Below are positions 2,683 through 22,826 of a stretch of 38,035 nucleotides of DNA, one piece after another. The DNA is taken from the NCBI GenBank assembly GCA_024654025.1, contig JANLIR010000008.1, forward strand, positions 1-38,035, in the 5' to 3' direction. The notes below the pieces were generated by a model. The model was not told the origin of the DNA and did no database searches. It saw only the letters and a program-made list of their open reading frames with translations. Position 1 is the first letter of the stretch. Every line of letters begins with the position of its first letter. Made by a program: the position numbers and the translations under genes. Source of the DNA: Candidatus Wolfebacteria bacterium. Lineage in GTDB: Bacteria > Patescibacteriota > Minisyncoccia > UBA6257 > UBA9933.

Positions 2683-2790
2683 TTAGATAATAGATAATCC
2701 CGTTGGAGCTGAGGGAGGAGTGTCCCGCTTTTGTCTCCGGCTCGCCAGAGCAACAAAATCGAGAGTGTCGGAGATTCCGCCAGCTTTCTG
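2683..2790 (-). pseudogene. Relic of a second C-terminal tail beyond the stop of the next gene
   Basis: After the TAA at 2793-2791 the same frame stays open for 35 more codons and ends in DTPPSAPTGLSII plus stop at 2685-2683. This is a second copy of the tail that ends the preceding protein (DIIPPANPTGLSVS). Ten-base inverted arms (2775-2784 and 2819-2828) bracket the first stop codon. It looks like the 3' remnant of a deleted paralogue or a duplicated tail. The rest of the 2545-2790 spacer is AT-rich and shows only the promoter of the next gene. Confidence 0.5.
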
Positions 2791-4140
2791 TTACGATACG
2801 GATAAACCAGTGGGATTGGCTGGCGGAATAATATCAGATGACCCCGAAACGTATTCATACGCGCCCCGATCCCAGACGCCGTCAGTGCCCCTTACAACGC
2901 CAGTCAGATCACTTTCATAGATTGCACTAAGTGCTAAGCCAGCGAGTGCTCCAGACAAGCGGAAGTCGCCATTGGCAGAATCTACATATGGGTCGCTACC
3001 GAAAGGAAGATCTGTGTCGTGCTCCCCTTCCGCGTTTCCGGATCCGCATTGGATCATCGTGTTGTAATCGGAATCCGCCATTTCTGTGATTGTATAGTTT
3101 TTGCACCTGTACCAAAGATTATTATAGACAGCATTGCTGTTCCCTTCATATAAGTGATACGAGGCGTTTATCCCGCGATGATTGAACACGGAGTTGTTGT
3201 AAATTTTCCAGTTGTACGCTTGCGCTGCCGCTGACCTCGTAGTAAAAATACCGTTGTTCACGCCTGTATAAATCGCAGAAGTGCTGTCGTTCCAGAACAC
3301 CATATTGCCGTATATTTCCCAATTGTAATCGTCCCCGGTAAGATTAACCACAACGCCGGTACCTTCTATGTCCTCCCATACATTGTAGCGAATAGTATAG
3401 TAATCGCCATAATTATCGGACCATCCTTCGGCGTGAACGCCGGAAGTTGACCGATTCCTGGCGAACCAGTTATATTGCACAAGCACGTTTTGCCAGTTTC
3501 TTGTCAAGAAAAACGTTCGGGTGGAATCATGCAGATAAGAATACTCAAGTGTAAAATTCGACACTGCCGTGTTTCCGTAAATATGATCCGCCGCGTCCGA
3601 GTCCGATACTTCAGTGGTATCAAAAGCAAACTCACTATGGCGTATAGCTATGTTGCTTGGAGCATTTGTCATAGTGAACAGAGTATCGTAGGTTGTATTA
3701 TAAAATTTTATTCCGTGTCCGACTTTCCAACTCGAAGGGCCACCGCCGGTAATTCCATCAATATCCCAATATCCGGTCGTAACTGTGGCCCTGGCGATAA
3801 CCGCTTGGCCATCGCCATACCCGGAGTCCCATCCAGTATCCGTGCCGTGAGCGCCGCTTGTCGCTTTTTTAATGTAAATGTAGGCCGTCCCGGATACTGC
3901 CGTATTGAGCGTAACAGCGTTATAAGAACCAACAGCTAAAAATATCGTGTCTCCGCGAGCCGCAAGGTTTTCCGCCGTTGATAACTGATCGCAAGCGCTC
4001 CCCAAATCCCAGTCGGAACAAGTGCTTCCGGTTGCTCCATCTCGGACATATAAATTCGCGGCTTGGGAGTTTTTTGCCCAGCCGAAAAGGCCGAGAAATA
4101 ATATTGCGAAAATTATTTTAAATTTTGAAAATTTGTTCAT
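2791..4140 (-). CDS. Secreted beta-helix protein with DTTPP-type tail
   Basis: 449 aa. The signal peptide (KIIFAILFLGLFGWAKNSQA) is followed by AANLYVRDGA and a region of repeating short strands rich in Asn, Tyr and Trp, typical of a right-handed parallel beta-helix (about 60-370). The closing motif is WDRGAYEYVSG and the last residues are DIIPPANPTGLSVS. The GAYE motif and layout recall choice-of-anchor-Q-type surface proteins (family knowledge, not searched). No catalytic motif of pectate lyases is evident, so an enzyme role is not claimed. The spacer to the gene upstream (4141-4178) is an AT-rich run of AATTTTCAATT-like repeats, with TATAAT about 36 bases before the ATG. Confidence 0.85.
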   Translation of the reverse strand: MNKFSKFKIIFAILFLGLFGWAKNSQAANLYVRDGATGSTCSDWDLGSACDQLSTAENLAARGDTIFLAVGSYNAVTLNTAVSGTAYIYIKKATSGAHGTDTGWDSGYGDGQAVIARATVTTGYWDIDGITGGGPSSWKVGHGIKFYNTTYDTLFTMTNAPSNIAIRHSEFAFDTTEVSDSDAADHIYGNTAVSNFTLEYSYLHDSTRTFFLTRNWQNVLVQYNWFARNRSTSGVHAEGWSDNYGDYYTIRYNVWEDIEGTGVVVNLTGDDYNWEIYGNMVFWNDSTSAIYTGVNNGIFTTRSAAAQAYNWKIYNNSVFNHRGINASYHLYEGNSNAVYNNLWYRCKNYTITEMADSDYNTMIQCGSGNAEGEHDTDLPFGSDPYVDSANGDFRLSGALAGLALSAIYESDLTGVVRGTDGVWDRGAYEYVSGSSDIIPPANPTGLSVS

Positions 4141-4178: not shown

Positions 4179-5564
4179 TTATAAAACGCTTAGTCCCGTT
4201 GGCACGGCGGGCGGGGTGGTATCGCCGCCGAAAACGTATTCATACACTCCGATGTCGGGAACGCCTATTATCGGGTTGCCTAAAATATCCGCGGCCAGCC
4301 CAACGTCAACTCCAGCATTGATAGCCGGGCTTCCGCCATTTAATCTGAAATCTCCAGCCGCACTGTCAAAAAATTGCGGGTCCACCTGGATGTTCCCGTT
4401 TCCGGCATAAAAATACCCGACGCCCGGCGCCCACAGCGAGTGGTCCGGGGGCGTAGGATCGGAGTAAACGTTGTAGACCGGCGAAGGGTTGTCGTTATTT
4501 GTGGGATGCCGGCCGGTAAAAATGTTGTTTTTTACATCGGGAGAAAAGAAACTTCCAAAATATGTGTCATGGAAAACATTGTTATACACTCTCTCAGGCC
4601 GTAAAGCAGTCCCCGGGTGAGTTTTATAAACTCCGGATCTGATGTCTGAAAATACGTTATACAGAACATCAATATTGCCGAAATTGTTGACATTGTCCGC
4701 CGTTGTCGACATTATTCCCTGTCCGTCGATATTTACGACGCGATTATTTCTGAAAACAAGATTAAATGGCCCGCTTGGAGGCCTTATTTGTAAAACATCG
4801 TTATGAACTCCCGTTATCCACGGAACATCCAACAAATCGTGAAAGTAAGAGAATTCTACGGTCAAAGTGCCCATGCCACCATATTTGATTTGGTCTTCAT
4901 AGGCCGTTTGTTTGAAATCGCTATGGCTTACAAGAGCATTGTTTGAATTAATGAGAAGCCCTGTTCCCCACGATCCAGTCCTTTCCGCTTCATATTTTAT
5001 ATTCTTTAATTCAAAAAAATCCGCGGCCGACCGCACGTTAATATTATAGCCGGTTTCATCGGTAAGATTAACGGTGAACTTTGATGCATCTTTTCCGTCA
5101 ATTGTCACATATGGCTGCCGCACGATAATATTGTCGGTTATAAGAACCGCTCCGTCACGGCCCGGCTCAGTGGACCTTTGGATCGTAATTCTTTGCGAAG
5201 CTACCCCCGCCTTATTGACATCCAGAACCGTTGAATAAACCATATTGACTGCTCCGCCGTCGATATGCACATTGTCGCCCGCCTGAACAGAGTTCCAATT
5301 TATTTGGTTAAGTTCGTTCCAGGCGTTTTCCCAGTTGCTCCCGGTGGAATTATTTCCGCTTTTTGAAACATACCAATCGGCCCCGTATGCTGGCGAGACC
5401 GGAGCAAGACTGAAAAAAATGGTAAAAATAAAGAAAATAAATCCGAAAGATAAAAACTTTTTGCGGCCAGCAATGGGATAAACCGTCCGGGAACTTTCCG
5501 CCCGGCCGAAAAGGCCAAGAAGGGTTATCGAGAGGAAAATGATTTTTATTTTATGCCTTTGCAT
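4179..5564 (-). CDS. Secreted beta-helix protein with two N-terminal hydrophobic signals
   Basis: 461 aa. The N-terminus carries two signal-like segments in tandem: IKIIFLSITLLGLFGRAESS (about 6-25), then FLSFGFIFFIFTIFFSLAPV followed by SPAYGADWYV (about 38-65). The mature part (DWYVSKSGNNSTGSNW...) is a predicted beta-helix ending DIGVYEYVFGGDTTPPAVPTG plus LSVL. Only 14 bp separate it from the next start upstream of 4179's neighbour genes, so it is probably co-transcribed. The first hydrophobic stretch matches the paralogues' signal peptides, and the second may be the native one, so the gene looks like a fusion of one leader onto a complete precursor. Function is unknown beyond being exported. 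Confidence 0.82.
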   Translation of the reverse strand: MQRHKIKIIFLSITLLGLFGRAESSRTVYPIAGRKKFLSFGFIFFIFTIFFSLAPVSPAYGADWYVSKSGNNSTGSNWENAWNELNQINWNSVQAGDNVHIDGGAVNMVYSTVLDVNKAGVASQRITIQRSTEPGRDGAVLITDNIIVRQPYVTIDGKDASKFTVNLTDETGYNINVRSAADFFELKNIKYEAERTGSWGTGLLINSNNALVSHSDFKQTAYEDQIKYGGMGTLTVEFSYFHDLLDVPWITGVHNDVLQIRPPSGPFNLVFRNNRVVNIDGQGIMSTTADNVNNFGNIDVLYNVFSDIRSGVYKTHPGTALRPERVYNNVFHDTYFGSFFSPDVKNNIFTGRHPTNNDNPSPVYNVYSDPTPPDHSLWAPGVGYFYAGNGNIQVDPQFFDSAAGDFRLNGGSPAINAGVDVGLAADILGNPIIGVPDIGVYEYVFGGDTTPPAVPTGLSVL

Positions 5565-5585: not shown

Positions 5586-7841
5586 TTAGTTGACAGTTAA
5601 TCCCTGGGGCGCGGCGGGAGGAGTAGTATCTGCTCCTGAAGCTGCCCCGTTCCATCCTGCCAGACGCGCCATCAGCCACCATAAAGCCTTGGCTTTTCTA
5701 ATATCAAGAGCATCGTTTGCATGGTCGCCCGCGTAAGTGTTAGGAGTAACGCTTTCACTGTAATCTGGATTGCGTAAATACTGGCCGCTGTTTATATATT
5801 GAGAGGTGTTGGTATTGTTCCAATTTTCAATATCCGCTTGGTCAAACAAAATACCGCTATTGGCTGAAGCGGCCTGGCGAATCATATCATTCCAACGATT
5901 CATGTCCGCGCCGTAGGTTGTATTGCAGTCGCTGACAGAGGTAGTGTACAAAAATTTGGTCGAGTTAACTGTTGAATCGGTATTAAAATCCGTAAGAGCG
6001 TTAAGATACAGCTGCAAGTCGGCATCGCCGAAAGGATGGCCGATTTCGCCGGTAGCATATGCCGGATTGCACATGTGATACGACCAACCGTAAATGGAGG
6101 CGCTAACGGGATAACCGAACACCGCAGCCGCCTGTCTGATGGTATTCTTCTGCGTTGTCTTAGCCGCGTCATCGGTCCAGTAAGTACTGGCGCCGCCGAA
6201 TTCAGACCAGGAACTGTAGGCGGATGAATACTTGCCGGTCAAATCTCTCAAAGAATTATCGTTAATAAACGAACCGGGGTTGTAAGCAACATCAGCGCTG
6301 TATTTGGAATTTTGAGTCTCGAGAAGTTGAAACCCGTAGTGGAATTGACGTGCATGCGATTGTCCGAAAACGCTTGCCACAAGGCGGCGGCTTTTGATTT
6401 GTTCAATCCAATAGTCAGGAATTATATTAAAATCATCAACGGCTCTGTGGTCGGCGACAATGAACGGCGAGGAAGAAACAGAATTTACATAAAAAGAAAT
6501 TAAAAAATCATCGGGATTGGAATTCCCCAAAGAATCAACACATCTCACATAGTAATTATAGCTCCGGCCGTTTTGCAAACCAGTCAGAAACGCGGAATGC
6601 AATGTGCCGCCCGTAGTTGAAAAAGTATTCATCATTGATAAATATGGAGCTCCGGCAGTTGTTGAATACCGGCAGGCGGCGTTTTCATTTGTTGTCAAAG
6701 ATAATGTCGCTTGAGTTGTGCCGGCGCCAAGAGTTCCGGTTGGAGAACCTCCGGAACGATAAGGAGGGATTGTGTCTTGCGGAGGCGGCGGAGCGGAACC
6801 GTTATATTCGTCCGCTCCGATATCCCAAGAGCCTGCTCTGATTTCGCCGTCAATGTCAGTTGAAAAAGATATGGCTGAATCCGATGACAAATCAATTCCG
6901 GCATCCTTAGCTGCGCTATCACTTGAAGATAAATGATAATTTCCGTTTGTCGAATCGCTAAAAGCGGCAGCTTGATTTATTTTGTTTCCAGTACCTCCCC
7001 AATCGTCTGATGTGGAATCGTCAGATATATTATAGCTAGCGGCCCAACTTTGGCCGGTGTTGGCGCGATATGCCTGTCCTGTTGCCGAAACGCCAATATT
7101 ATTAATTAAAGTTCCTGCGCCAATGCTGTTATAAAACGCCCTTCCGGCATTGGCTATACCGGTGTTGTTGTAGAAATACGCATTAACATCGGCATCGTTT
7201 AAGAAGAAAGCTTCGGCCCCGGAATTGGTAGAATTGTTAATGCCTATATTATTCCATAATTTAACAGTTAACGGTCCAACGTAATAGATATCATAGATGT
7301 CATAGCCGGAATTATAGTCATTTTGGCCGAAGCTGTTGGAAATCCGCACTTCCCCGGCTCCGCTTGTATTATAAATAAAATAAATACGATTATTGTCGGT
7401 GATGCGGATGGATATGCCGTCAATGCGTACATTCTCTTCAGAGATGATAAGCGGAGTCGTTCTGCGATAGCCCGGTCCCCATGTGCCGTCATGGCGGGCT
7501 TGGGGTGTTGTGTAAATATTAATATAACGGCTGGCATCGGTGGTCCATCCGTTTATAGTGACCGCAGACGCATCCGGATTAATCCATGTTCCGTCTACTT
7601 TAGCGGTGGCAATGGTATCGGCGCAAACCAGATCGCCCGTTGCACAAGAACCAAAATTTATTCCTCCGTAAGCGGATTCCCAAGCGGAGAGTGAAGTAAA
7701 ACAATTTGAATAACCAGAACAATCCTGGCGGACGAGACCGACTACCTCGGTAGCGGCACGGGAATTATTGTTCATGCCAAAAAAAATCGCTATTAAAAAT
7801 AAATTTCTCCAGCTGAAAAATTTTTTGAAACAAAATTTCAT
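5586..7841 (-). CDS. Secreted beta-helix protein with C-terminal SGNH-hydrolase-like domain
   Basis: 751 aa. Signal peptide (RNLFLIAIFFGMNNNSRA), then ATEVVGLVRQDCSGYSNCF, a beta-helix, and WDIGADEY near residue 345. A Pro-rich linker and an Fn3-like segment (SYNYYVRCVDSLGNSNPDD) follow. The last 280 residues (from about HRAVDDFNIIPDYWIEQ) contain FGQSHARQFHYGF, ILFDQADIENW, and DHANDALD leading to ALWWLMARLAGW. These resemble secreted SGNH/GDSL-hydrolase-like proteins with a TSHG-S-like block and a final WWL-ARLAGW helix (recalled family resemblance, not searched). The protein ends DTTPPAAPQGLTVN. TATACT lies 13 bases before the ATG. It may deacylate glycans or wall polymers, but the substrate is unknown. 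Confidence 0.8.
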   Translation of the reverse strand: MKFCFKKFFSWRNLFLIAIFFGMNNNSRAATEVVGLVRQDCSGYSNCFTSLSAWESAYGGINFGSCATGDLVCADTIATAKVDGTWINPDASAVTINGWTTDASRYINIYTTPQARHDGTWGPGYRRTTPLIISEENVRIDGISIRITDNNRIYFIYNTSGAGEVRISNSFGQNDYNSGYDIYDIYYVGPLTVKLWNNIGINNSTNSGAEAFFLNDADVNAYFYNNTGIANAGRAFYNSIGAGTLINNIGVSATGQAYRANTGQSWAASYNISDDSTSDDWGGTGNKINQAAAFSDSTNGNYHLSSSDSAAKDAGIDLSSDSAISFSTDIDGEIRAGSWDIGADEYNGSAPPPPQDTIPPYRSGGSPTGTLGAGTTQATLSLTTNENAACRYSTTAGAPYLSMMNTFSTTGGTLHSAFLTGLQNGRSYNYYVRCVDSLGNSNPDDFLISFYVNSVSSSPFIVADHRAVDDFNIIPDYWIEQIKSRRLVASVFGQSHARQFHYGFQLLETQNSKYSADVAYNPGSFINDNSLRDLTGKYSSAYSSWSEFGGASTYWTDDAAKTTQKNTIRQAAAVFGYPVSASIYGWSYHMCNPAYATGEIGHPFGDADLQLYLNALTDFNTDSTVNSTKFLYTTSVSDCNTTYGADMNRWNDMIRQAASANSGILFDQADIENWNNTNTSQYINSGQYLRNPDYSESVTPNTYAGDHANDALDIRKAKALWWLMARLAGWNGAASGADTTPPAAPQGLTVN

Positions 7842-7871: not shown

Positions 7872-8188
7872 TTAAGAAGATTTTTTGATCTGGTCCAGGA
7901 TTTGATTCAATTGATCTTGCAGATAGTTGATCTGTTCCAGAAGATTGAGTATCCTTCTTGTTTTCGGCCCCACATATCCATAAGCAGAGTCGGATTCATT
8001 AGCTATGCCGTATTTGATCTGAAGTTTCTGGACTGCTTGTTTGGTTAATTGTCCGTAGTATCCGGTGATCAGCTTTTGGGGATAGATATCGGGGTATTGG
8101 GAGAGAAATGATTGGAGGTTTTTGACTTCGGGATTGGAGAGGCCGGGGTAGAGATACTTTGTAAATGATACTGATTGATATTGATTGA
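7872..8188 (-). pseudogene. Out-of-frame peptidoglycan-binding domain of the gene at 7999-10695
   Basis: In the alternative minus-strand frame the DNA encodes FTKYLYPGLSNPEVKNLQSF, ITGYYGQLTKQAVQKLQ, YGYVGPKTRRILNLLEQ and a short coiled-coil-like end (NYLQDQLNQILDQIKKSS), with a stop at 7874-7872. It aligns residue for residue with the in-frame domain of the gene at 1-2544. It is cut off from its own gene by a frame change in the 10-bp repeat at 8171-8200. Removing one 10-bp unit restores a continuous frame. Confidence 0.8.
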
Positions 8189-10695
8189 TATTGATTGATA
8201 TTAGTGGATATTGGGATACTTGTTGCCTGCCCTGAGCCTGCCGAAGGGTTGGTTGATATTGGTTGCGGTTTCGTCGGCGAAAGAATACTAATCGGCAATC
8301 CGGCGCTTGCTACGGCAGCAGATACAGAACAAGCAGAGGTTGTTTGCGATAAAGAAGAAGTGGCTGATTCGGTTGCGTCTCCATTTCTGTATTTGATTGT
8401 ATATGAATATGAAGTATTGCAAGTAAGTCCTGTGTCAGTCCAGGAATTGGTTGTTATCCAACCGGAATTATTTGAATTTGTTGTATTGAGGAAATAATAG
8501 CCAGAGGAAGAAGAAGACGCGTTATTGAAAGAATCAACTGATAAAGCATTGGAAGTTTGGCTTGGAGTAGCGGAGAAGTTAGTGGGACTAGGAGTAAGAG
8601 TGTATTTGCTGGAAGTGGCTCCGTATGAAGAGATATTTCCTGCCAGGTCTGTGAATCTGACATCATAGGTGTATTGGGTGTTGGAGGTAAGAGATGAGTC
8701 AGAAGTGGTAGCAGTGGAAGTGGAAACAGCTGACAAGGTGGTGGTGGAGTTTCTTCTTACTTGCCATTGGTAAAGGCCAGAACCACTCTCTGTGATTGTT
8801 GAAGTAGAAGGCCTGTTGATGATTATTGAGGAAGAAGTGATGGTTCCGAATGTTGATGACGCGATTGTTCCTGTGGGAGCGGTGGTGTCAACTCCAAAGG
8901 AATTAGTTCCTGAATTGAATTGAGTAAATGATGATGTTCCGTTGGAATAATCCAATAATCTGGCTTGCCATTTGTAGTTTCCGTCTGGAAGAGAAGAAAC
9001 AGTAATTGATGAGGTGGCAGTGGCACCAGAAGAAGAAGTGGCGGTGGAAGTGGTGAAGCTGGAAGCGGTGTAATTAGGAGCATTAGAAAACGTAGAGGTG
9101 GACAATTCTACTTGGAGTTTTTCCAAATCATTGAGATCAGAGTCGGAGATAATACCCATAAAACATGCGGTAGATGTAGTTATCCAATAAGTGGAGGTGG
9201 ACATAGCGCTGGAACAACCTGAAGTGTATTGGCCTAAACTAACTGGAGTATTGGGAGCGGTGTTGACGAATTCATCCGCTCCGATGTCCCAAGCAGAACC
9301 CCAAGGTCTGGTTTGTCCGTCAATGTCGTCAGTAAAACCAATTTCGGAGACGCTTGAGGTGGCGGAGTCTTTAGCGGCAGTGTCTGATGAACGAAGGTGG
9401 AAATCAGAAGTGGAGGTAGAAACAAACGCCACAATTTTACTGGTTGTTGCGAAGGTGGCGTTGGGCGCGTCTCCAGCGATGTCGGAAATGTTGTAATTGG
9501 AACCTGCTGGGAAACTCCCGGAGTAACCATCTGTAGAACTTTGAGCAATATTATTCTTATGCAACCCCGTATTATCCGACCAACTAAAATACCCACCATA
9601 CGAATTATAAACAGTATTGTTGTAAACATAATGGGTACTTGCACGAGTGCGTATTCCATAATTAACATAAGAGCCGTTGATAAAATCATAAACGATATTA
9701 TTCCAAACCCTAGAAGTAAGACCAGTAACCTCAAGTATTATTCCGCTATTATTAGCGGCCGTCCCTGACAAAACTCCTTTTATAATATTATCGGAAATCC
9801 TCACATCTGAACTGCCAGCATCAACATACGCTTGAAGAATGCCAGCGTCCCAAGCACTATTAGTAGTTAATCGTATCTGTAGTCCTTCCACACGCACATA
9901 GTTTTCCCGATTTGTAAGAATTGATGCTAATACATATTTCGTGTCATCCCACTTCCCGCTATGCCTTGCCGCAGTAGTAGTATAAATTTTTATGTAGTTG
10001 GTTGAGGTAGTTGTCCAACCGTCTATTGTAACCGCAGTCGTATCCGCGCTTGTCCAAGCTCCATCTATTTTAGCAGTGGCTATGGCGGAATCGCCTGCGT
10101 TGGATATGACTATATAATTAGAACCGTTTACCTGAAGTTGTTCGCCTGATTGAAAATTTGATTTGCCTCTGGCAGAAGTTTGACCAGAAGTATTAAGAGT
10201 TGAAGTGACTATTAGGGTTAATTGGGTGCTTGATTGGATAGACAACACTTGTTGCCAGGTTTGGGATGATTCAAGCCAGATATAATCATCTGCTGTTAGT
10301 TCGGTTGTGTATAAGGTTCCGTCTCCGGTAACCGTGGAGGTGGTGTTGGAAAAAGTTGAAGTGCCGGTCAGGATGTTTCTGATGTTTTCCACAAGAACTT
10401 GATTGCTTGTAGTGGATGCGTTATGAAGAACCTTAGCTTTGGTAGTTGTGGATACTGAACCAGTAACAGTTGCTCCGTCTGAAACAGTTCCGGTTGTGGA
10501 AGAAACGGAATAAACCTTGGTGGAAGAAACTGTTAAATCGGTATTAATTGCCGCTTCCCAAGAAGACAGGGTGTTATAATCCCCTCCTGATTGCATTACA
10601 GATGAAACGAATTCAGTGGCGGCAAATGTTTTGGGGATTAAAAAAACCAGGCCTAAAATAAATACGGTTAATAAAAATATTAGCTTTCCGCGCAT
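7999..10695 (-). CDS. Secreted beta-helix/Fn3-like protein, C-terminus frameshifted
   Basis: 898 aa as read. Signal peptide (FLLTVFILGLVFLIPKTFA), ATEFVSSVMQSGGDY, an insert not seen in the sister genes (about 105-190, LTADDYIWLESSQTW), a beta-helix, WDIGADEFVN near 470, and a Ser/Thr-rich Fn3-like region to about 790. The last 50 or so residues (YKVSLPRPLQSRSQ...) have no family character. They are the wrong frame of a peptidoglycan-binding domain that is intact in the alternative frame down to 7872. The switch falls in a 10-bp tandem repeat. A GC-rich repeat just before it encodes NPSAGSGQA. In this state the protein would be secreted but lack its wall anchor. The alternative is an assembly error in the repeat. 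Confidence 0.8.
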   Translation of the reverse strand: MRGKLIFLLTVFILGLVFLIPKTFAATEFVSSVMQSGGDYNTLSSWEAAINTDLTVSSTKVYSVSSTTGTVSDGATVTGSVSTTTKAKVLHNASTTSNQVLVENIRNILTGTSTFSNTTSTVTGDGTLYTTELTADDYIWLESSQTWQQVLSIQSSTQLTLIVTSTLNTSGQTSARGKSNFQSGEQLQVNGSNYIVISNAGDSAIATAKIDGAWTSADTTAVTIDGWTTTSTNYIKIYTTTAARHSGKWDDTKYVLASILTNRENYVRVEGLQIRLTTNSAWDAGILQAYVDAGSSDVRISDNIIKGVLSGTAANNSGIILEVTGLTSRVWNNIVYDFINGSYVNYGIRTRASTHYVYNNTVYNSYGGYFSWSDNTGLHKNNIAQSSTDGYSGSFPAGSNYNISDIAGDAPNATFATTSKIVAFVSTSTSDFHLRSSDTAAKDSATSSVSEIGFTDDIDGQTRPWGSAWDIGADEFVNTAPNTPVSLGQYTSGCSSAMSTSTYWITTSTACFMGIISDSDLNDLEKLQVELSTSTFSNAPNYTASSFTTSTATSSSGATATSSITVSSLPDGNYKWQARLLDYSNGTSSFTQFNSGTNSFGVDTTAPTGTIASSTFGTITSSSIIINRPSTSTITESGSGLYQWQVRRNSTTTLSAVSTSTATTSDSSLTSNTQYTYDVRFTDLAGNISSYGATSSKYTLTPSPTNFSATPSQTSNALSVDSFNNASSSSSGYYFLNTTNSNNSGWITTNSWTDTGLTCNTSYSYTIKYRNGDATESATSSLSQTTSACSVSAAVASAGLPISILSPTKPQPISTNPSAGSGQATSIPISTNINQYQSISISIIYKVSLPRPLQSRSQKPPIISLPIPRYLSPKADHRILRTINQTSSPETSDQIRHS
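8171..8200. repeat. 10-bp tandem repeat (3 copies) in coding sequence
   Basis: Three head-to-tail units, CTGATTGATA followed by TTGATTGATA twice, and then a degenerate fourth (TTAGTGGATA). The unit length is not a multiple of three, so each gain or loss changes frame. Two units put the downstream peptidoglycan-binding domain in frame; three, as here, do not. Confidence 0.9.
8226..8248. repeat. GC-rich CTTCGGCAGGCTCAGG-type repeat in coding sequence
   Basis: On the minus strand CCCTTCGGCAGGCTCAGGG followed by CAGG encodes NPSAGSGQA inside the secreted protein. The sister gene at 1-2544 lacks it at the same place, so it is an insertion. Relatives of this repeat lie at 30213, 30338 and 33166. 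Confidence 0.7.
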
Positions 10696-10701
10696 AAATT
10701 A

Positions 10702-10729
10702 ATTGTAGCAAATTTCGATTGTTAAACAA
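10702..10729 (-). promoter_or_regulatory. Sigma70-like promoter next to the start codon
   Basis: Minus strand TTGTTT (10729-10724), 16 bp, TACAAT (10707-10702), then 6 bases to ATG 10695. It overlaps the stop region of the gene at 10722. It implies a leaderless transcript and some independence from the upstream genes. Confidence 0.4.
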
Positions 10730-12023
10730 CGCTTAGTCCTGTTGGTGCGGCAGGAGGAGTAGTGTCGCCAGAAACATATTCATATGCTCCAAGGTCGGGA
10801 AAAGAACTTGCCGATCTGCTATTTCCCTCAATATCAGTAGGAACTGTGGCGGTAAGATTAAGACCAGCGTCAATTGGAGCGGCTCCGGTAACTAAATGAT
10901 AGTTTCCATTTGCTTTGTTAATGTAATAACTATCTGAGGTAGCTATATTGTTTATTATTGATAGGCCTATGTTATTTTTAACATCGGTTGTCCCTGCTGA
11001 GATATAAACTGCTTTGGAATTCGGCATATCAATTGTATTGTGATAAATTTTCCTTGCGTACCCTGAATCCCCCGCCCAAAGATTGTCAACATAAATTCCA
11101 TAATGGTTCGCATTAATATTATAAATTAGATTGTTATATATCGTAGATCCGGTTCCTGCCCGTATCGCAGTATAACCAGTATGAATAATGTTGTTTTTGA
11201 TTATGTGGTTTGGATTTGAATCCCATCCTTTGCCGTCAGTATGATTGGATTGATTCACTTCGATTGCCCCAACCGTGGCACCAATATCTGGAGTGTTATA
11301 AATGAGATTGCCATCAACTGTAATATCATGAGTTCCAGGTTTTAACTCTATAGCTTCATCTACTATATTATAGATGGTATTATTTTTTACTAAAATATTA
11401 TTAGTATTGTCTTGTAATCCTCCTGAACCGGTTCCTATGTATATTCCTTCGCCGTTATATTGCCATTGACGAGTATCGTGGATTAAATTATTTTGAATCG
11501 TAATGTAAGACGAATTATTGTGGATAGAAACGGCGTCTTGTCCAACATGATGCACGCTGGAATTTTCTATTATCATATGATCCGAATTTTCTATCCAAAT
11601 TCCCTGATTATAATTTGTTATTTCAAAGCCAGAAAGATTCATATAACTAACGCCGCTAAATTTCATTCTTCCTGTATTGATTCCATTTCCCAAAAGTTTG
11701 GGAGTATGGCCGCTATAGGCTTTAATCTCTGTGCTTTTGGCACTATTGCCGCTTGGGCCTGTTATGGTAAAACTTTCGTTATAAGTCCCGTTTTTCACAA
11801 TAAGATTGTCTCCGCCTGAAATTATACTTATGCCATATTGAATAGTGCACCATGGATTAGATTCTGTTCCGTAAGAAGAAGAATTATTACAAACAGGAGA
11901 TCCGGAATTATCAACATAATAATTGGCGGCTTGGGAAATTTTAATAAATATTAAACCAAAAATCCCTGTGAAGATAGCGAGAAAAATAATAAACTTTTGA
12001 AAATTTCTAACTTGAAAATTCAT
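10722..12023 (-). CDS. Secreted right-handed beta-helix protein with DTTPP tail
   Basis: 433 aa. Signal peptide (FIIFLAIFTGIFGLIFIKIS, QAANYYVDNSG). It then shows the most regular beta-helix in the array, with repeated NN-I-(Y/H) turns (IIENSSVHHV, ITIQNNLIHD, ILVKNNTIYNI, ITVDGNLIYNT, HIIKNNIIHTG). This pattern matches NosD/carbohydrate-binding parallel beta-helix proteins. The closing motif is DLGAYEYVSG and the tail is DTTPPAAPTGLSVV. It probably binds or cleaves polysaccharide at the surface, but no catalytic residues can be assigned. Confidence 0.85.
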   Translation of the reverse strand: MNFQVRNFQKFIIFLAIFTGIFGLIFIKISQAANYYVDNSGSPVCNNSSSYGTESNPWCTIQYGISIISGGDNLIVKNGTYNESFTITGPSGNSAKSTEIKAYSGHTPKLLGNGINTGRMKFSGVSYMNLSGFEITNYNQGIWIENSDHMIIENSSVHHVGQDAVSIHNNSSYITIQNNLIHDTRQWQYNGEGIYIGTGSGGLQDNTNNILVKNNTIYNIVDEAIELKPGTHDITVDGNLIYNTPDIGATVGAIEVNQSNHTDGKGWDSNPNHIIKNNIIHTGYTAIRAGTGSTIYNNLIYNINANHYGIYVDNLWAGDSGYARKIYHNTIDMPNSKAVYISAGTTDVKNNIGLSIINNIATSDSYYINKANGNYHLVTGAAPIDAGLNLTATVPTDIEGNSRSASSFPDLGAYEYVSGDTTPPAAPTGLSVV

Positions 12024-12092: not shown

Positions 12093-13475
12093 TCAGTTAA
12101 TTGTCAGTCCTGTCGGCGCAGAAGGAGGAGTGGTGTCAGGAGAGCCGCCTGTTAGCGGGTGGGGATAGGTATAAGCGGTATAGGGATACGTCGCGTCTCC
12201 TGTTTGCGGAGCGCGATTATAGTAGTCGCGATTCGCCTGAATATGCGCGGATGTATAGCATGTGCCAGTTTCCGGCGAAGCGTCGTACACGCTTGCCGTA
12301 ACCGGCGATCCATTTAATGTGTTGTCCCAATAATAGATTGGGGCTGGTATTCGATTTCCACCTTGACCTGCTTGTTCAAAGCATTGATACCCACGGTACG
12401 TTTCTGTTGGAGATTTGTTTCCATCATATGTATACGCGCTATACCCTCCTTGGGAATTATCCCAAGTGCCGTTGCATTGCCCTCTCGTCGTATAAAGAGA
12501 GCCAGAAGTTGTTTGTCCGTACCTGGTAAACCAATTCTCACATGACCGGTAATTCGTCATTTGTACACCACGAGAACCCCAATCCCCGATAATTGTATTA
12601 TTGTAAATTTTCCCTGTTCCGCCACGGAACTGAAACATCCATACAGGACGCACCCGCTCCGTGCCACTGTACTGAGTCATGGTATTCCCATATGCTTCAA
12701 ACGCCAGGCAGCTATCTCCTGAATCAGGACCGTGAGTTGCGATACTCCAATTTACCAAGGTATTGTAACGAACGACGTATTTTCCTCCGTCACCACAGTC
12801 AAACGCGTCCGAACTACCTCCAGTGGAATCCTCAAAGTATGAGTCTTCAAAATATACGAAAGTGTTATCTCCCCATGTGGTAGGAATCTTCCAGTTATCT
12901 GCAACGGGAACGGTAGTTATCTTTCCGCGGACAAGAGTACCTCCTATGTTTCCTCCCGAATTTCCCGTAGTAACCCGAACGTGGTCTATTAATCCGGTCG
13001 CTCCGTTGGTAGCCGTGAAAGATCTTCCATGGGAAAGAGTTTGGTCAACATATATATGGTCAAAACGGAAAACAGTTCCAACTCCATTTGCTTGTATCAT
13101 ACCCCATGTTGATCCGCCACCGGTTTCAGTAGACCCGACACGGAACCCACTAATTCTATAAAACCCGGCAGTTCCGCCAACGCTAAATAACGTCGTATAT
13201 GTCGGATATGCGCCTCCATTGTTTCTGAGGTATGTACCGTTTTCGTTTAGCGCCTTTATGGTCAATGGTTTTGTGACGCTTACCCCAGAACTCCAATCCC
13301 AAGTCCCATCAGGACACACAAGCGTATCGCCTGCCGTTGCCGAGGATACGTAAGAAGCCACTGTTGTCCGAGCGCAATCCGGGAGGTTAGTCGTCGCTGC
13401 CCAAGAACTTTCCGCCCAGCCGAAAATTCCAAATAAAATGAATAAGAGACCGGTAATAAGTAATTTAATTTTCAT
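12093..13475 (-). CDS. Secreted beta-helix (pectate-lyase-like fold) protein with DTTPP tail
   Basis: 460 aa from the ATG at 13475, chosen because it gives a clean signal peptide (MKIKLLITGLLFILFGIFGW, AESSWAAT). An ATG at 13523 would add 16 residues and overlap the upstream stop. The mature protein begins TTNLPDCARTTVASYVSSAT and GDTLVCPDGTWDW, an opening seen in parallel beta-helix proteins of the pectate-lyase superfamily. Rungs include FRFDHIYVD, LIDHVRV and YFEDSYFEDSTGGSSDAFDC. Its Cys content is higher than in its paralogues. It ends GGSPDTTPPSAPTGLTIN and lacks the GAYE motif. It may recognise surface glycans; activity is not shown. Confidence 0.8.
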   Translation of the reverse strand: MKIKLLITGLLFILFGIFGWAESSWAATTNLPDCARTTVASYVSSATAGDTLVCPDGTWDWSSGVSVTKPLTIKALNENGTYLRNNGGAYPTYTTLFSVGGTAGFYRISGFRVGSTETGGGSTWGMIQANGVGTVFRFDHIYVDQTLSHGRSFTATNGATGLIDHVRVTTGNSGGNIGGTLVRGKITTVPVADNWKIPTTWGDNTFVYFEDSYFEDSTGGSSDAFDCGDGGKYVVRYNTLVNWSIATHGPDSGDSCLAFEAYGNTMTQYSGTERVRPVWMFQFRGGTGKIYNNTIIGDWGSRGVQMTNYRSCENWFTRYGQTTSGSLYTTRGQCNGTWDNSQGGYSAYTYDGNKSPTETYRGYQCFEQAGQGGNRIPAPIYYWDNTLNGSPVTASVYDASPETGTCYTSAHIQANRDYYNRAPQTGDATYPYTAYTYPHPLTGGSPDTTPPSAPTGLTIN

Positions 13476-13512
13476 AATTTTATTTACACTACTAATAATA
13501 GCCTTGCAATTT

Positions 13513-14793
13513 CTACAATTCATCTGCTCCGATATCCCAAATAGATCCCCTGGTTTGTCCGTCTATGTCAGTAGTAAAAGCCAAATTGGGGTCTGCGGAT
13601 AAATCAGTTCCGGTATCTTTGGCGGAAGTATCGGTTGAAACGAGATGAAAGTCGCCAGTGGAGGTGGAAACAAAATTTACTATTTTACTTGTTGTCGCGA
13701 AAGTAGCGTTAGGAGCGTCTCCAGCGATATCGGAGATGTTGTAGTCGGAGGAGGTTGCAAAAGTGCCGTTATATCCATCATTTGCACCTTGCACAATATT
13801 ATTTTTTGCAAAATAATTCACTCTGACATTTATAACAATACCATCTACACTATTATAAATAGTATTGTTATAGCTGTGTACAACCATGTTATAGCCCGTG
13901 TCAGCACCAAAATAAATACCCATGCCTCTGGTCCCATTTTTAAAATCATAAATAATGTTATTCCACAAAAAATTATTGTTTGAACGAGCGCCGGAACTGA
14001 TCAGTCCTGTAATGTTCTGGCTTCCTGCAGTTAGCGTGCCAGTTTTAATTATGGAGTTAGAAATTCGCAATTCTGAATTAACATTATCAACAAAATTGAA
14101 TATCCCATAAGTGGAGACCGCGGAACTATTCGAAGCCTTAATTTGTAAGCCGTCTATTTTTGTGAATTCTTCCCTCACCCATACGGCGCTACCGTCGGCT
14201 GAGAGAGTTACTTCTAATCTGTATTTCCCCGTATCCCATTTCCCGTTATGCCTTGCTGTGGCAGTAGTATAGATATTGATGTAGTTAGTTGAAGTAGTTG
14301 TCCAGCCTACAATAGCTACAACCGTAGTATCCGCACTTGTCCAAGAGCCGTCAATTTTGGCGGTAGCAATTGCAGAATCTCCCGTATCGGATATTTGGAA
14401 ATAATTGGTGGTGGAAGCGGTTACTCGCCATTGATCGCCTACTTGAAAAGAATAGGTGGAGCTGGAGATAGAAGCGATAAGGATTTGAGTGGCTGTGTTG
14501 TGTTTGGAAACTCCCGTTATCTCGGTTGATGTCGAACTTCGCCATAAAGTAACGCCAGCGGCGTCAGCGATTGTCCCAGTTACTGAACCAGAGAAAACTT
14601 TTGTGGTTGAGGTTGTTAGATCGGTATTTATAGCCGCTTCCCAAGCGAATAGAGTGGCATAATCCCCTCCCGTCTGTTGAATAGTGGAGACAAATTCAGT
14701 GGCGGCGAATGCTTTGTTGCTTATTCCAAAAACCAGCAGAATAAATACAATTAGAAATATTATTTTTTTAAAATTTATAACCTGAAAATTCAT
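13513..14793 (-). CDS. Secreted beta-helix protein, short form ending at the DIGADE motif
   Basis: 426 aa. Signal peptide (IIFLIVFILLVFGISNKAFA), ATEFVSTIQQTGGDY, a beta-helix, and the protein stops at WDIGADEL. It is the N-terminal module of the large paralogues (1-2544 and 7999-10695) without the Ser/Thr-rich and wall-binding parts. Nucleotide similarity to the first gene is very high in the N-terminal third (14383-14710 against 2141-2467). Without an anchor it would be released or held by partners. Confidence 0.82.
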   Translation of the reverse strand: MNFQVINFKKIIFLIVFILLVFGISNKAFAATEFVSTIQQTGGDYATLFAWEAAINTDLTTSTTKVFSGSVTGTIADAAGVTLWRSSTSTEITGVSKHNTATQILIASISSSTYSFQVGDQWRVTASTTNYFQISDTGDSAIATAKIDGSWTSADTTVVAIVGWTTTSTNYINIYTTATARHNGKWDTGKYRLEVTLSADGSAVWVREEFTKIDGLQIKASNSSAVSTYGIFNFVDNVNSELRISNSIIKTGTLTAGSQNITGLISSGARSNNNFLWNNIIYDFKNGTRGMGIYFGADTGYNMVVHSYNNTIYNSVDGIVINVRVNYFAKNNIVQGANDGYNGTFATSSDYNISDIAGDAPNATFATTSKIVNFVSTSTGDFHLVSTDTSAKDTGTDLSADPNLAFTTDIDGQTRGSIWDIGADEL

Positions 14794-14820: not shown

Positions 14821-16365
14821 TTATGATATGGACAGCCCTGTCGGCACAGCGGGAGGGGTGGTGTCAGCCGGAACTCCAGAAACATATTCATACGCGCCAC
14901 GATCCCATGTTCCGTCAGCGCCACGGATATTTCCGTACATATCCAGACGGGAATCGAACGTGCCGAAAAACGTATCAGCGGACTCGTTCCACCATGATTG
15001 TGCCGCTAAGTTTAATCCTGCCGCTGTTGGAGCGACCACCCTATAATCATCTTTGGTATAGTCTACGAATATGCTGGATGATAATCCAGTTTGTGCGTTC
15101 GTTCCTCCGGGCGCGCCATATCCACCGGAAGCGTGATACCCATGACCTGTCTGCCTATTGCTGGTAGAGTTATTGCTGTTGTAATATAGATTGTTGTAGA
15201 GGTAGTTCTCAGCCACTACAGAATAACCAGATGCTATATGGTAGCGTATCTGCGTGAACTCCGCGCCAGCATCGGTCAAAGAGTCTCGAAGATTAACATG
15301 AGTATTGTTGTAGGAACTAACGTAAGAAAACTCAGGTGTTGCGGCTACCGCTTCTGCTCCTGCGACAATGCCGTTATTAAACCCACGATTTCCTTCGGTA
15401 CAATCACCTACGCTTGGTAGGCACACTCCTGTTTGTCCATACTTATTGTAGATAATATTTCCATAAAACCTTACCTGACGAAAATTCTCTCCATATAAAA
15501 TCGCCTGACCTTCATTATGAATAAACTTATTCCATCGTACTACGATATAGTTTGGCAGGTCAGAACCAGCGCCGGGCCAGTGGAATTGAAGCACTTGTCC
15601 GTATGGCGCATAGGGACAATTACCCCGAACGCCCGGTCCACAATAAGGACGCCGCCTTCCAAGCCTTTCTACAACACTCCTTTCAATCAAGACATACTTT
15701 GAGTTTCCGAACTGCATTCCATCAGTAGTACAGTTTTGAAAGTATGAGTTTTGTATTTTATAATGATGTCTATTGACGCCTGAAACACGAAGGGCTATCG
15801 TATCATCCGAACCTAAAATTCCTTCCTGATCTCTGGCAGCATTATAAACGTGGACATACCTTATAGTAATATTACTCGAATTTGTTATCTGTACATATCC
15901 AGCGTGGAGTAAATGAGTGTTAAGGCTGACTTTTATTCCATAATCGAGGGTGTTGGTACTGGGTACTATATGAGTTCCGTTTCCGTCGATTGTATAATAA
16001 CTGGTTGCGAAAATTATCGGACCGGTGAAGATTGCCTGTCCTGTTCCATAAGAATCGCTCCATCCGGTTGACGTTCCGTGATCTGCAACGGTGGCCTTCT
16101 TAATCGTAATCACGAGAGTGCCATTAACCGCATCATCAAAGATGTGTCCGGCACCATATGATCCGGTAGCAAGGTAGTAGGTATCTCCGCGGGTAAGGGC
16201 GGAGGGGAGACTGCCGTAGGCGTTTGCCCAGTCAGATCCGTTTCCAGAGGCTCCTTGCCGCACGTAGCGGTTGGCTGCTTCGGAACTTTCCGCCAAACCA
16301 AAAAGGCCGAGAAATACTGCCAAAAAAATTAAAAAAATTTTGTTCGGAGATTTATAGATACTCAT
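14821..16365 (-). CDS. Secreted beta-helix protein with DTTPP tail
   Basis: 514 aa from ATG 16365; a TTG at 16377 would add four residues. Signal peptide (FLIFLAVFLGLFGLAESSEA), then ANRYVRQGASGNGSDWANAY and GDTYYLATGSYGAG. The beta-helix contains many Asn/Tyr turns (NITIRYVHVYN, YKIQNSYFQNC, VLIERSVVERL), followed by WDRGAYEYVSG and ADTTPPAVPTGLSIS. Five bases separate it from the stop of the pseudopilin gene, so the two are probably co-translated. Role: exported surface protein of unknown ligand. Confidence 0.83.
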   Translation of the reverse strand: MSIYKSPNKIFLIFLAVFLGLFGLAESSEAANRYVRQGASGNGSDWANAYGSLPSALTRGDTYYLATGSYGAGHIFDDAVNGTLVITIKKATVADHGTSTGWSDSYGTGQAIFTGPIIFATSYYTIDGNGTHIVPSTNTLDYGIKVSLNTHLLHAGYVQITNSSNITIRYVHVYNAARDQEGILGSDDTIALRVSGVNRHHYKIQNSYFQNCTTDGMQFGNSKYVLIERSVVERLGRRRPYCGPGVRGNCPYAPYGQVLQFHWPGAGSDLPNYIVVRWNKFIHNEGQAILYGENFRQVRFYGNIIYNKYGQTGVCLPSVGDCTEGNRGFNNGIVAGAEAVAATPEFSYVSSYNNTHVNLRDSLTDAGAEFTQIRYHIASGYSVVAENYLYNNLYYNSNNSTSNRQTGHGYHASGGYGAPGGTNAQTGLSSSIFVDYTKDDYRVVAPTAAGLNLAAQSWWNESADTFFGTFDSRLDMYGNIRGADGTWDRGAYEYVSGVPADTTPPAVPTGLSIS

Positions 16366-16382
16366 AAAAATCGGCAAAAAGG

Positions 16383-17984
16383 TTAATTTCGACTTTTCAC
16401 TACTGAAGGCGTCAATATTAAATTACTCCCTATTTCTAATATATTAACATTTTGGCCTCCGTCTTTGCCACCTATTTTATCCACGCCTTTGTTTTTGTCG
16501 GATTCAAATATGGAGGTCAGTTCCCATTTCTTGCCGTCGGTGACAAAAGTATAATATTTGCCGTTTTCTGATTCATTTGTGGGGTCAATGGGCAAAACAG
16601 ATAAGGTATTTCCTGAGATTTTACCAAAATCCACCGGTATCCATCCGATTCCGTTTACTTTCTGAAATGTTGAGGAAGCAAAACATCTGTATGCCCAGCC
16701 AGAAGGAGGAGCAGGCAAAGAAGAATGATTGGTACAATTTCTGTTGTCATCCGGCAAAGACAGGAAAATATCTTGAAGCTGGTCAGCGCCGATGTCCCAA
16801 ATATTAAATCTCCGAAGTCCATCAATGTCATTACTGAATGATAAATTAGGGTCGTTTAAAAGATTCACCCCAGCTCCTCTTGCGGCAGTATCAGAAGGAG
16901 AAAGATGAAAATCATCGCCAGCTTCATTTACAAATTGAACTGTGGCGGCGTTTATGGGATTTGAACCGGGCGCATCGGTCTGCGATGGGCCGGAAAGGTT
17001 GTTAGTGGAGGAGGCATTAAAAATTCCGCTATAATTATAAGTATTGTTATAGGAAATGTTGTTTTTGGCGAGAACCGTTCCTGAATTGCGGTAAAATCCA
17101 TAAACTGAATTATATACGGTGTTGTTATAAATATAGACTTTTAAAGATATGTTATTGACTATTCCCCTTCCGTTGGAGCCATTAATAAAATCATAGACAA
17201 TGTTATTCCATATGTAAACGGTGGCATCTCCTTCAAGATCAGATACTATTATTCCCCAGCCAGAACTAGTTCCTGACAGAACCCCTCTAACGATATTTTC
17301 TGAAATCCTAATATCGGATGGATTATTTACGGATAGTACGGAAACGGCATCACAAGTTGTGCAAGACGTTAATGTATCTTTTATTTGCAGCCCCTCCACC
17401 CTTACAAAATCCTCGTTTATAACCAATGAATCTTGATTTGTTGTTTCTAACCGATATTTCGTATCGTCCCACCTCCCGTTGTGTCTTGCTTCAGAAGTGG
17501 TATAAATTTTAATGTAATTGTTCGGCCCGGTTATCCATTCGGCTATCTGTACATAATTTGTATCAGCTGTACTCCACATACCATCAATCTTGGCTACCGC
17601 TACTTTATTAGCGCAAACTAAATCGCCTTGAGCGCAAGAACCGAAATTAATACCTCCGAATGCCGTAACCCAAGCAGCTAATGAAGTAAAGCAGTTTGAA
17701 TATCCTACGCAATCCTGGCGGACCAAACCGATTACGGCATTTGAAGGATCGGCTTGAACAATATTGGAAGTTTTAAAAATATCACCATATTCCTTGTACG
17801 CCCTTATCGCGGTATCAATCGCTTTTAAATCAGTTGTCCTAAGCGCATCTCTTGATTGTTTGAAAATTTCCGAAGGATTTAAAATCATAACCGTAACAGT
17901 GCCAACAATAGCCAAAACACCTACAACAATAAGAAGCTCGAGGAGGGTGAAGCCATTATTTCGCGAAGATTTGTTGACAAACAT
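16383..17984 (-). CDS. Type IV pseudopilin with an inserted beta-helix domain
   Basis: 533 aa, first gene of the array. Residues 11-12 (NNG/FTLLELLIVV) form a prepilin-peptidase site, with Glu at mature position 5, and the helix continues into NPSEIFKQSRDALRTTDLKA, as in CPR pseudopilins. From about residue 85 to 402 a beta-helix of the array type is inserted (VIGLVRQDCVGYSNCF to WDIGADQL). Pilin sequence then resumes: SLPDDNRNC, PPSGWAYRC, GIGWIPVDF, LSVLPIDP, YYTFVTDGKKWELTS and a DGG motif near the end. The beta-helix would thus be carried on a pilin-like subunit at the cell surface. No other pilus genes are in the window. A candidate promoter (TTGTCA, about 17 bp, TACAAA) lies around 18079-18050 on the minus strand, and the leader is AT-rich. 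Confidence 0.85.
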   Translation of the reverse strand: MFVNKSSRNNGFTLLELLIVVGVLAIVGTVTVMILNPSEIFKQSRDALRTTDLKAIDTAIRAYKEYGDIFKTSNIVQADPSNAVIGLVRQDCVGYSNCFTSLAAWVTAFGGINFGSCAQGDLVCANKVAVAKIDGMWSTADTNYVQIAEWITGPNNYIKIYTTSEARHNGRWDDTKYRLETTNQDSLVINEDFVRVEGLQIKDTLTSCTTCDAVSVLSVNNPSDIRISENIVRGVLSGTSSGWGIIVSDLEGDATVYIWNNIVYDFINGSNGRGIVNNISLKVYIYNNTVYNSVYGFYRNSGTVLAKNNISYNNTYNYSGIFNASSTNNLSGPSQTDAPGSNPINAATVQFVNEAGDDFHLSPSDTAARGAGVNLLNDPNLSFSNDIDGLRRFNIWDIGADQLQDIFLSLPDDNRNCTNHSSLPAPPSGWAYRCFASSTFQKVNGIGWIPVDFGKISGNTLSVLPIDPTNESENGKYYTFVTDGKKWELTSIFESDKNKGVDKIGGKDGGQNVNILEIGSNLILTPSVVKSRN

Positions 17985-21002: not shown

Positions 21003-22826
21003 TTAATTACCGCTTATGACCTTTTTTGCATATTCCCAATACCTTTCGTCATTGTTCTTCGTCTTTAATTTATACCACCACTCGGCTCCCCATAAATAAT
21101 ATTCGTCAAAGCCGGTAGCTTTCGCATAATTAATTGTATCAGCAAAATAATCAGGGCTAAAGAGCTCAATTTGGCGAGCATAAGAAATATGGGGAATTTC
21201 CCGCTTATCCCACGGTTCTGCCTGAAGCTCGGAAACAAAAAACTTTTTTTGATATTCGCCGGTCAATCGCCTCACAATTTTTTCTTTCAGTTTGAAAAAA
21301 CTCGGTTCTAACGGATATTCAATGACTCCGGTCAGCCAGCCGATTGAGGGCGAATAAACCTTGCGGTACATTGTCGTGCCAAAAACATCGCCTTTTTGAA
21401 CGGCTTTGTACCATAAACCGAATTCGCCGCTGTCAGAAACAACAATCGGTCTTTTGTTATCAATTGATTTTATAAGGGAAATTTCTTTGTCAAGAAATCC
21501 GTCCGGCCGCTTGTCGCATTCGCCGAAATCCAAAAACGGCTCGTTTTCCGCTTGCCAGCTCTCAATGACGCTATTATTTTTATAACGTTCAACGATATTT
21601 TTTAAATAATCTCGAAGCGCGATTTCTTTTTCGTCGGGACTCAAATTATTCGCCCAATCCGGGATAAAACATTCCGGCCATCTTGGCACCTTCATGCCAA
21701 CGACCAAAATTACTTTTTTATTTTTAGCGGCGGATTTTTCTAAAAGCCAATCCGTATCTGAAAATTCATATTGGCCTTTAATTTTTTCAATATCGTCCCA
21801 GTAAGCGACTAATCGCAACTTTGACGGATTCAAATCATTTAAAATCGCCTCGTAATTTTTTTGCCAATCAAGGCCGAGTTGCCTGCTGAATTTTTGGGAA
21901 AACGTAACGCCCCAATTAATATGCCTATTAGTATCAACGGGTAAATTTCTTGCGTAACCGACGAGCCCTAACCACGCAAGTCCAATAACCACAAAAATAG
22001 TCGCTAAAATTTTTCCCACAAATACCTTGCCCTTAAAATGTTCTTTAAGAAGAACCCACGAAACTAAAAATATAACCACATACTTCAAGCTTTGGGTGGC
22101 ATCGACAAGCGCGGGATGAGTCAATGAAAAAGCCACGTTGACCAAAATCGATCCGGCGGCGGCAAAGGCGCGGTTGGCGAAGTAAGACACTTTATCTCTC
22201 GAACCGCTAGTTTTTGTAGCGGAGAAAATATTCTTTCTAATTTTCGGAATTAAAAGGAAAAGTGTCGCGAAAATTGCCTCGCCTATTTTTATCCAAACAT
22301 AGCCGGCAATAAACGGGCCTGATTGAAAAACAATTTTTGAAAGAGTGTGCGAAATTCCGAACATAACCGAACTTGCGAGAACCAGTAAAAATACCGACCA
22401 TACCAATTCTTTTTCCTCAATAAAAAACAAAACAAAGGCGCCCAAAATCAGCATGATAAAGCCGACAATATCGCCAACGCCAATCGCAATGTCTAAAAGC
22501 ATGTACCCGACTATCAAAGTGAATATTGGCGAAAACCCGCCGATAAGCGGATAGATTTTTGACGCCTCGCTTTTTGAAAGCGCCAAAAATAAAAAATACA
22601 TCGCAAACACAAAAACCACCGCCGAAGCAAAAGCGATAAGTATTGTTTTAATAGGAAGAATCGCAAAACCGAAAGGCATCAAAAAAATTGCCAAATAGCC
22701 CATTACGGCGAACCAAAAAGTATAAACTAAAGGATCAAAAAATCTCTTTTTTAAAAGCCATTTGTCGAAAACAGCGGAAACACCCAAAATCACCTGCGCG
22801 GCAATGGCGATATAAAACCAATTCAT
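21003..22826 (-). CDS. EamA-type permease fused to a clan-A-like glycoside hydrolase
   Basis: 607 aa. Residues 1-290 have about ten membrane helices in two halves, as in EamA/DMT transporters (e.g. FTLIVGYMLLDIAIGVGDIV, ILATIFVVIGLAWLGLVGYA). Residues 300-605 are a TIM-barrel glycosidase: NWGVTFSQKFSRQLGLDW, LRLVAYWDDIEK, VGMKVPRWPECF, SWQAENEP (Glu429, likely acid/base), FFVSELQAEPWD (Glu533, likely nucleophile) and YYLWGAEWWY. GH5-like cellulase proteins with one membrane anchor are common in CPR (recalled). With ten helices the catalytic part would face the cytoplasm, unless the topology differs. Eighteen bases separate it from its neighbours on each side. It may import and cleave oligosaccharides. 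Confidence 0.83.
   Translation of the reverse strand: MNWFYIAIAAQVILGVSAVFDKWLLKKRFFDPLVYTFWFAVMGYLAIFLMPFGFAILPIKTILIAFASAVVFVFAMYFLFLALSKSEASKIYPLIGGFSPIFTLIVGYMLLDIAIGVGDIVGFIMLILGAFVLFFIEEKELVWSVFLLVLASSVMFGISHTLSKIVFQSGPFIAGYVWIKIGEAIFATLFLLIPKIRKNIFSATKTSGSRDKVSYFANRAFAAAGSILVNVAFSLTHPALVDATQSLKYVVIFLVSWVLLKEHFKGKVFVGKILATIFVVIGLAWLGLVGYARNLPVDTNRHINWGVTFSQKFSRQLGLDWQKNYEAILNDLNPSKLRLVAYWDDIEKIKGQYEFSDTDWLLEKSAAKNKKVILVVGMKVPRWPECFIPDWANNLSPDEKEIALRDYLKNIVERYKNNSVIESWQAENEPFLDFGECDKRPDGFLDKEISLIKSIDNKRPIVVSDSGEFGLWYKAVQKGDVFGTTMYRKVYSPSIGWLTGVIEYPLEPSFFKLKEKIVRRLTGEYQKKFFVSELQAEPWDKREIPHISYARQIELFSPDYFADTINYAKATGFDEYYLWGAEWWYKLKTKNNDERYWEYAKKVISGN

Follow-up and report, generated by a model that had tools for sequence, protein, structure and literature searches.

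Cultivated Patescibacteria grow attached to other microbial cells, and the way in which they select and retain a partner is still largely open. The locus described here raises the question of whether a type IV pilin of such a bacterium can carry a large foreign domain inside its own fold, and what a subunit of this kind would be for. The DNA analysed, called the window in the following, comprises 38,035 nucleotides from Candidatus Wolfebacteria bacterium (GenBank assembly GCA_024654025.1, contig JANLIR010000008.1) and represents contig C3 in full; the genome, G000, has 630 kb and is scored 100% complete. The gene in question lies at 16383–17984 on the minus strand. It encodes a pilin with an internal beta-helix, and we consider it likely that this protein acts as a minor type IV pilin (or pseudopilin) of modular build, which presents the beta-helix, probably at the filament tip, for attachment.

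A beta-helix within a type IV pilin

The N-terminus of the protein reads MFVNKSSRNNG/FTLLELL (slash: predicted cleavage site) and has the characteristics of a type IV pilin, i.e., a class III leader with Gly at −1, Glu at +5 and a hydrophobic alpha1 thereafter. It was matched by the Pfam model N_methyl PF07963 (E-value 4e-6) and passed the cut-off of the NCBIfam model TIGR02532. An earlier note on this DNA, made from the letters without database searches, had read the gene as pilin sequence interrupted by a beta-helix of 318 residues and resumed afterward. The order of the parts holds, since the head restarts at residues 404–406 and GWIPV and LPIDP are both present, but the insert is somewhat longer than assumed, about 321 residues. 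The head type, with its GWIPV, LPIDP and DGG blocks, is common in the order.

As a reference for the empty insertion site and for the fold of the head, we used L013, a natural insert-free pilin of 205 amino acids from genome G001 of the same genus, whose head is 54% identical to that of the window pilin. An AlphaFold model of L013 (predicted local distance difference test, pLDDT, 85.6) has alpha1 at residues 12–64, strand 1 at 77–83, and antiparallel strands. Since the L013 alignment and model mark the empty site, this comparison puts the passenger into the alpha-beta loop, immediately ahead of strand 1. The AlphaFold2 model of the full-length window protein shows a beta-helix at residues 81–400, most of it with pLDDT above 85. 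Foldseek, applied to this part, returned right-handed beta-helices, with lacto-N-biosidase as the best match (E 5e-4) and further matches to pectate lyase Pel9A and Rhombotarget A (both E 2-3e-3) and to pectin methylesterase, all with weak E-values (5e-4 to 4e-3); these matches include carbohydrate-active proteins. By model and Foldseek, the insert therefore has the parallel coil fold of a right-handed beta-helix.

Two divergent copies and a mobile passenger

The reading frame is open across both pilin/beta-helix junctions, and a second full-length copy was found on contig C2 (57540–59108), with the same layout and 53% identity over residues 9–532. Synonymous sites of the two copies are near saturation (44–59% identical codons at identical residues), yet amino acid identity reaches 89% in the passenger cap (82–135) and 88% in the head end (477–533); because of this combination, we regard both genes as old and selected, as expected under purifying selection. 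The locus of the C2 copy also encodes an ordinary pilin without insert, PilB (T2SSE, 4e-120) and PilC (T2SSF, 3e-52), and according to Pfam the prepilin peptidase PilD (A24) is encoded elsewhere in G000, so that the assembly machinery is present.

The earlier note had named chimeric assembly as a finding that would overturn its reading. Such an artefact, whether of assembly or of annotation, would have joined a pilin gene and a beta-helix gene, for which the repetitive nature of the cluster and the ending of contigs C2 and C3 within the same repeat could be cited. Nevertheless, the second copy is intact, resides on the other contig and has diverged almost to synonymous saturation, and the junctions are in open frame; chimeric assembly is therefore rejected, and we give an artefact next to no credence. 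Regarding the contig ends themselves, window position 1 and C2:64957 both fall in the same repeated FN3/peptidoglycan-binding-like coding sequence, and the cluster may therefore continue or join there.

For comparison, pilins of related genomes were collected from open reading frames fetched by similarity to this head, a survey which is not exhaustive and from which duplicate loci were removed. In 54 of the 56 distinct order-level pilins with both stalk and head, the head directly follows alpha1, and 49 of these 54 extend 63–763 residues beyond it, with C-terminal passengers that include, by eye, LamG-like and formylglycine-enzyme-like modules. An internal gap (319–320 residues) is found solely in the two genes of G000. 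The same insertion point, which the earlier note had suggested looking for in other pilins of the Candidate Phyla Radiation, was absent from the 244 genomes of the order outside these two genes, and a widespread conserved insertion point is rejected; a scan of 84,980 species genomes with two peptide patterns, which may miss distant cases, also found none. Judged from these sequences, the internal passenger is a rare version of the usual C-terminal pilin fusion.

The passenger itself is more widespread. Four secreted proteins in the window contain homologues of it behind a signal peptide and without a pilin (Table 1), among them the product of the gene at 5586–7841 (42% identity), just as the earlier note had described for this gene. 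Genome G212, from a different family, has this beta-helix (48% identity) fused C-terminally to the head of pilin L045. This pilin (L045:1498-3078) sits in an operon with a gene order like that of the window cluster. Of 384 genomes of the class, 21 have a member of the passenger family, which extends to Nitrospira, Chloroflexi, Omnitrophica, Elusimicrobia and others; the complete N-termini inspected among these have a signal peptide and no prepilin leader. The idea of a mobile passenger is thus supported: it is found inside the pilin (two G000 genes), after the head (L045) and in pilin-free secreted proteins, and the window protein is a modular pilin in the sense that its pilin module is joined to a domain also found in non-pilus proteins. 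A similar case of one module with different anchors is the choice-of-anchor Q family (NF041518), which shares the DIDGxxRxxxxWDIGADE-type end; some neighbours in the window pass this model, and the pilin scored under its curated cut-off.

Phylogenetic trees of the parts point in different directions. In the passenger-core tree, the insert of the window gene joins a secreted homologue from another family (support 99/97), and an approximately unbiased (AU) test did not reject grouping both G000 pilin inserts together (p 0.098). An exchange of passengers between the two pilins is thus suggested by the tree, without significance in the AU test. In the stalk tree, the C2 gene is placed with the insert-free pilin of G001 (100/100) and the window gene with its G212 counterpart (97/92). 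A tree constrained to unite the two G000 stalks is worse by 23.7 log units (AU p 0.044), based on only 76 columns. Heads from C2, C3 and G001 cluster together (92/84). Stalk and passenger have likely been shuffled as modules.

A probable adhesive minor pilin and competing functions

ComZ of Thermus thermophilus is the nearest precedent, with a beta-solenoid of about 380 amino acids within the pilin fold and a proposed position as tip subunit (PMC6561018). The large beta-solenoid inside the fold is common to both. However, it lies between the last two strands in ComZ and, following the L013 alignment, before strand 1 in the window pilin, so that the insertion sites differ. Streptococcus sanguinis PilB and PilC, modular pilins of an adhesive tip (PMC8179133), similarly combine a pilin module with an unrelated one, but their vWA or lectin module is C-terminal rather than internal. 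In Nanosynbacter lyticus TM7x, also a member of the Patescibacteria, the minor pilins PilX1 and PilX2 have extra domains as well (jelly-roll or beta-propeller), in this case C-terminal; deletion of PilX2, whose C-terminal domain is needed for binding, lowers host binding (PMC12206443). PMC8179133 further describes GspK, at the tip of the type II secretion pseudopilus, which resembles the window pilin in having a domain within the pilin fold, although in GspK an alpha-domain is inserted in the beta-sheet. Large minor pilins with C-terminal extra domains and a secreted partner protein, namely CofB/CofJ and TcpB, are comparable in size and partner but have no beta-helix insertion.

It is because of the precedents in S. 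sanguinis, ComZ and TM7x PilX2 that we favour an adhesive function. In the proposed mechanism, prepilin peptidase would cut at Gly11/Phe12, and alpha1 would hold the subunit in the membrane and afterwards in the filament. The right-handed beta-helix of 321 residues would exit via the alpha-beta loop and re-enter before strand 1, and therefore the pilin head could still close behind the passenger. As the passenger exceeds the pilin in size, a position at the filament tip is probable for the subunit; there, the beta-helix might bind a protein or polysaccharide of a partner cell or of detritus. On this view a pilin has received a stock secreted module, which in a related genome follows the pilin C-terminally. 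A stock beta-helix spliced into a pilin, and found at its other end in relatives, illustrates one way in which a conserved filament could change its binding specificity.

Some results weigh against this reading. The whole-protein structure prediction proposed in the earlier note delivered the beta-helix but not the head, for which pLDDT stayed below 50; pilin stalks were misplaced in rows of the underlying alignment (A4), and because these stalk rows were lost, this part of the model is uninformative on the head fold. Foldseek found no PDB fold match for the model of the insert-free pilin L013, and the sequence profile of the latter matched solely pilin stalks and N-terminal parts of GspG. The beta-helix yielded neither a catalytic nor a binding site, no active site was traced in it, and the insertion point is confined to G000 among the 244 genomes.

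Alternatively, the protein could be a pseudopilin of a secretion-type machine, i.e., the non-adhesive tip of a pseudopilus comparable to GspK or CofB, catching and expelling the beta-helix proteins encoded behind it. For all three beta-helix pilins known to us from this survey (C3, C2, G212), the gene behind overlaps or starts within about 20 bp and encodes a secreted protein with a C-terminal tag resembling strand A of a fibronectin type III (FN3) domain; moreover, the passenger resembles the adjoining secreted proteins, and CofB serves as a precedent with its secreted CofJ (as described in PMC8179133). However, these neighbours bear ordinary signal peptides, and the tagged proteins also cluster without any pilin in G018, G264 and G013, which makes a secretory role rather unlikely in our view. 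Less probable still is a membrane-anchored surface protein that uses alpha1 only to anchor the beta-helix and does not polymerise. Although it is mostly other secreted proteins that display the passenger family, and alpha1 is widely divergent between the two G000 genes (38%), a full pilin head and E5 have been kept, and the locus of the C2 copy has PilB and PilC. The adhesive minor pilin is the reading which we retain as likely.

Tagged secreted neighbours and a possible split FN3 domain

The tag of the secreted neighbours comprises 14 residues with the pattern D-x-x-[PA]-P-x-x-P-[TS]-G-L-x-[VI]-x-COOH (for example DTTPPAAPTGLSVN), resembles FN3 strand A and is immediately followed by the stop codon. 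The genes behind the three beta-helix pilins end with D-x-x-P-P-x-x-P-x-G-L-x-[VI]-x. In total, 31 tagged proteins with 13 unrelated body types were detected in seven genomes, and their common part is limited to the last 14 residues. The Asp at −14 is invariant though it was outside the search pattern, and the distance from tag to stop is invariant among the unrelated secreted bodies. Further tagged loci are L040:14096-17429, L146, L204 and L205. An orphan tag, DTPPSAPTGLSII followed by a stop, is present at window positions 2683–2724, about 70 bp past the stop of the gene at 2791–4140 and without a gene body; it looks like the remnant of a deleted tagged gene.

A possible counterpart are FN3 proteins whose mature or exposed part begins with strand B and in which the Pfam fn3 match begins at profile position 7-16 of 84 (loci L157:10940-11377 and L157:8472-10910, both on contig C6 of G000, L066:6926-9111, L146:9537-11651 and L210:3228-3614). 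Such strand-A-less proteins were detected in five of the 244 order genomes (G000, G001, G013, G018, G022; E below 1e-30). Tags were found in G000, G013, G018, G022 and G212, genomes with a single match (G021, G110, G112, G229) being treated as chance. Tag and receptor-like FN3 gene therefore co-occur in four of five (Fisher p 2e-7); in a broader sample of the class, from which G000 was left out and in which the chance-like singletons counted against the pairing, the ratio is three of four (p 3e-5), and both p-values ignore shared ancestry. In G018 (C1:283961-301356), 14 consecutive tagged secreted genes have a strand-A-less FN3 gene at the end, and the two gene types are also adjacent or nearly so in G013, G022, G264 and G460. 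In G001, the receptor-like FN3 gene directly follows the insert-free pilin. No receptor-like FN3 gene was detected in G212, which has the tag, and no matching tag in G001 and G429, which have receptor-like FN3 genes.

We tentatively suggest, with slightly less than even confidence, that the pilin operons are part of a split-FN3 surface-display system. The tag would dock by donor-strand complementation into a membrane- or wall-attached FN3 domain starting at strand B, and the beta-helix pilin would present or recruit modules of this class on the pilus. Our literature searches returned no description of split-FN3 surface anchoring; the pairing, if true, would be a non-covalent, sortase-independent route of surface anchoring.

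Table 1. Coordinates of the pilin gene, its parts and the secreted proteins encoded in the window
Feature	Position	Strand	Details and evidence
Modular type IV pilin with internal beta-helix	16383..17984	minus	533 amino acids; sequence, Pfam, paralogue, model
Class III prepilin leader, residues 1-11	17952..17984	minus	Gly end, F+1, E+5; sequence, PF07963
Alpha1 stalk, residues 12-72	17769..17951	minus	model helices 14-35 and 42-72
Inserted beta-helix passenger, residues 82-402	16779..17741	minus	NAVIGLVRQDC to DIGADQ; homologues with same start and end points; model, Foldseek
Pilin head, residues 404-533	16386..16775	minus	GWIPV, LPIDP, DGG blocks; 54% identity to insert-free L013; A3 alignment
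Next gene, 5 bp past pilin stop: secreted, C-terminal FN3 strand-A-like tag	14821..16377	minus	sequence
Secreted stand-alone passenger homologue	13513..14793	minus	44%, stops exactly at DIGADEL; sequence comparison
Secreted protein with FN3 strand-A-like tag	12093..13523	minus	sequence
Secreted beta-helix protein with tag	10722..12023	minus	PF13229, choice-of-anchor Q; profile matches, sequence
Secreted passenger homologue with repeat domains	7999..10695	minus	45% over passenger; sequence comparison
Secreted passenger homologue, signal peptide, ends in tag	5586..7841	minus	42% identity; sequence comparison
Secreted protein with tag	4179..5564	minus	choice-of-anchor Q; profile match, sequence
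Secreted protein with tag	2791..4140	minus	sequence
Secreted passenger homologue, repeats and peptidoglycan-binding-like end, cut by contig end	1..2547	minus	34%; sequence comparison

Elsewhere in the window, the gene at 21003–22826 appears, by eye only, to be a fusion of an EamA-like transporter and a glycosidase-like domain, and adjoins a GH1-like gene (22845–24122).
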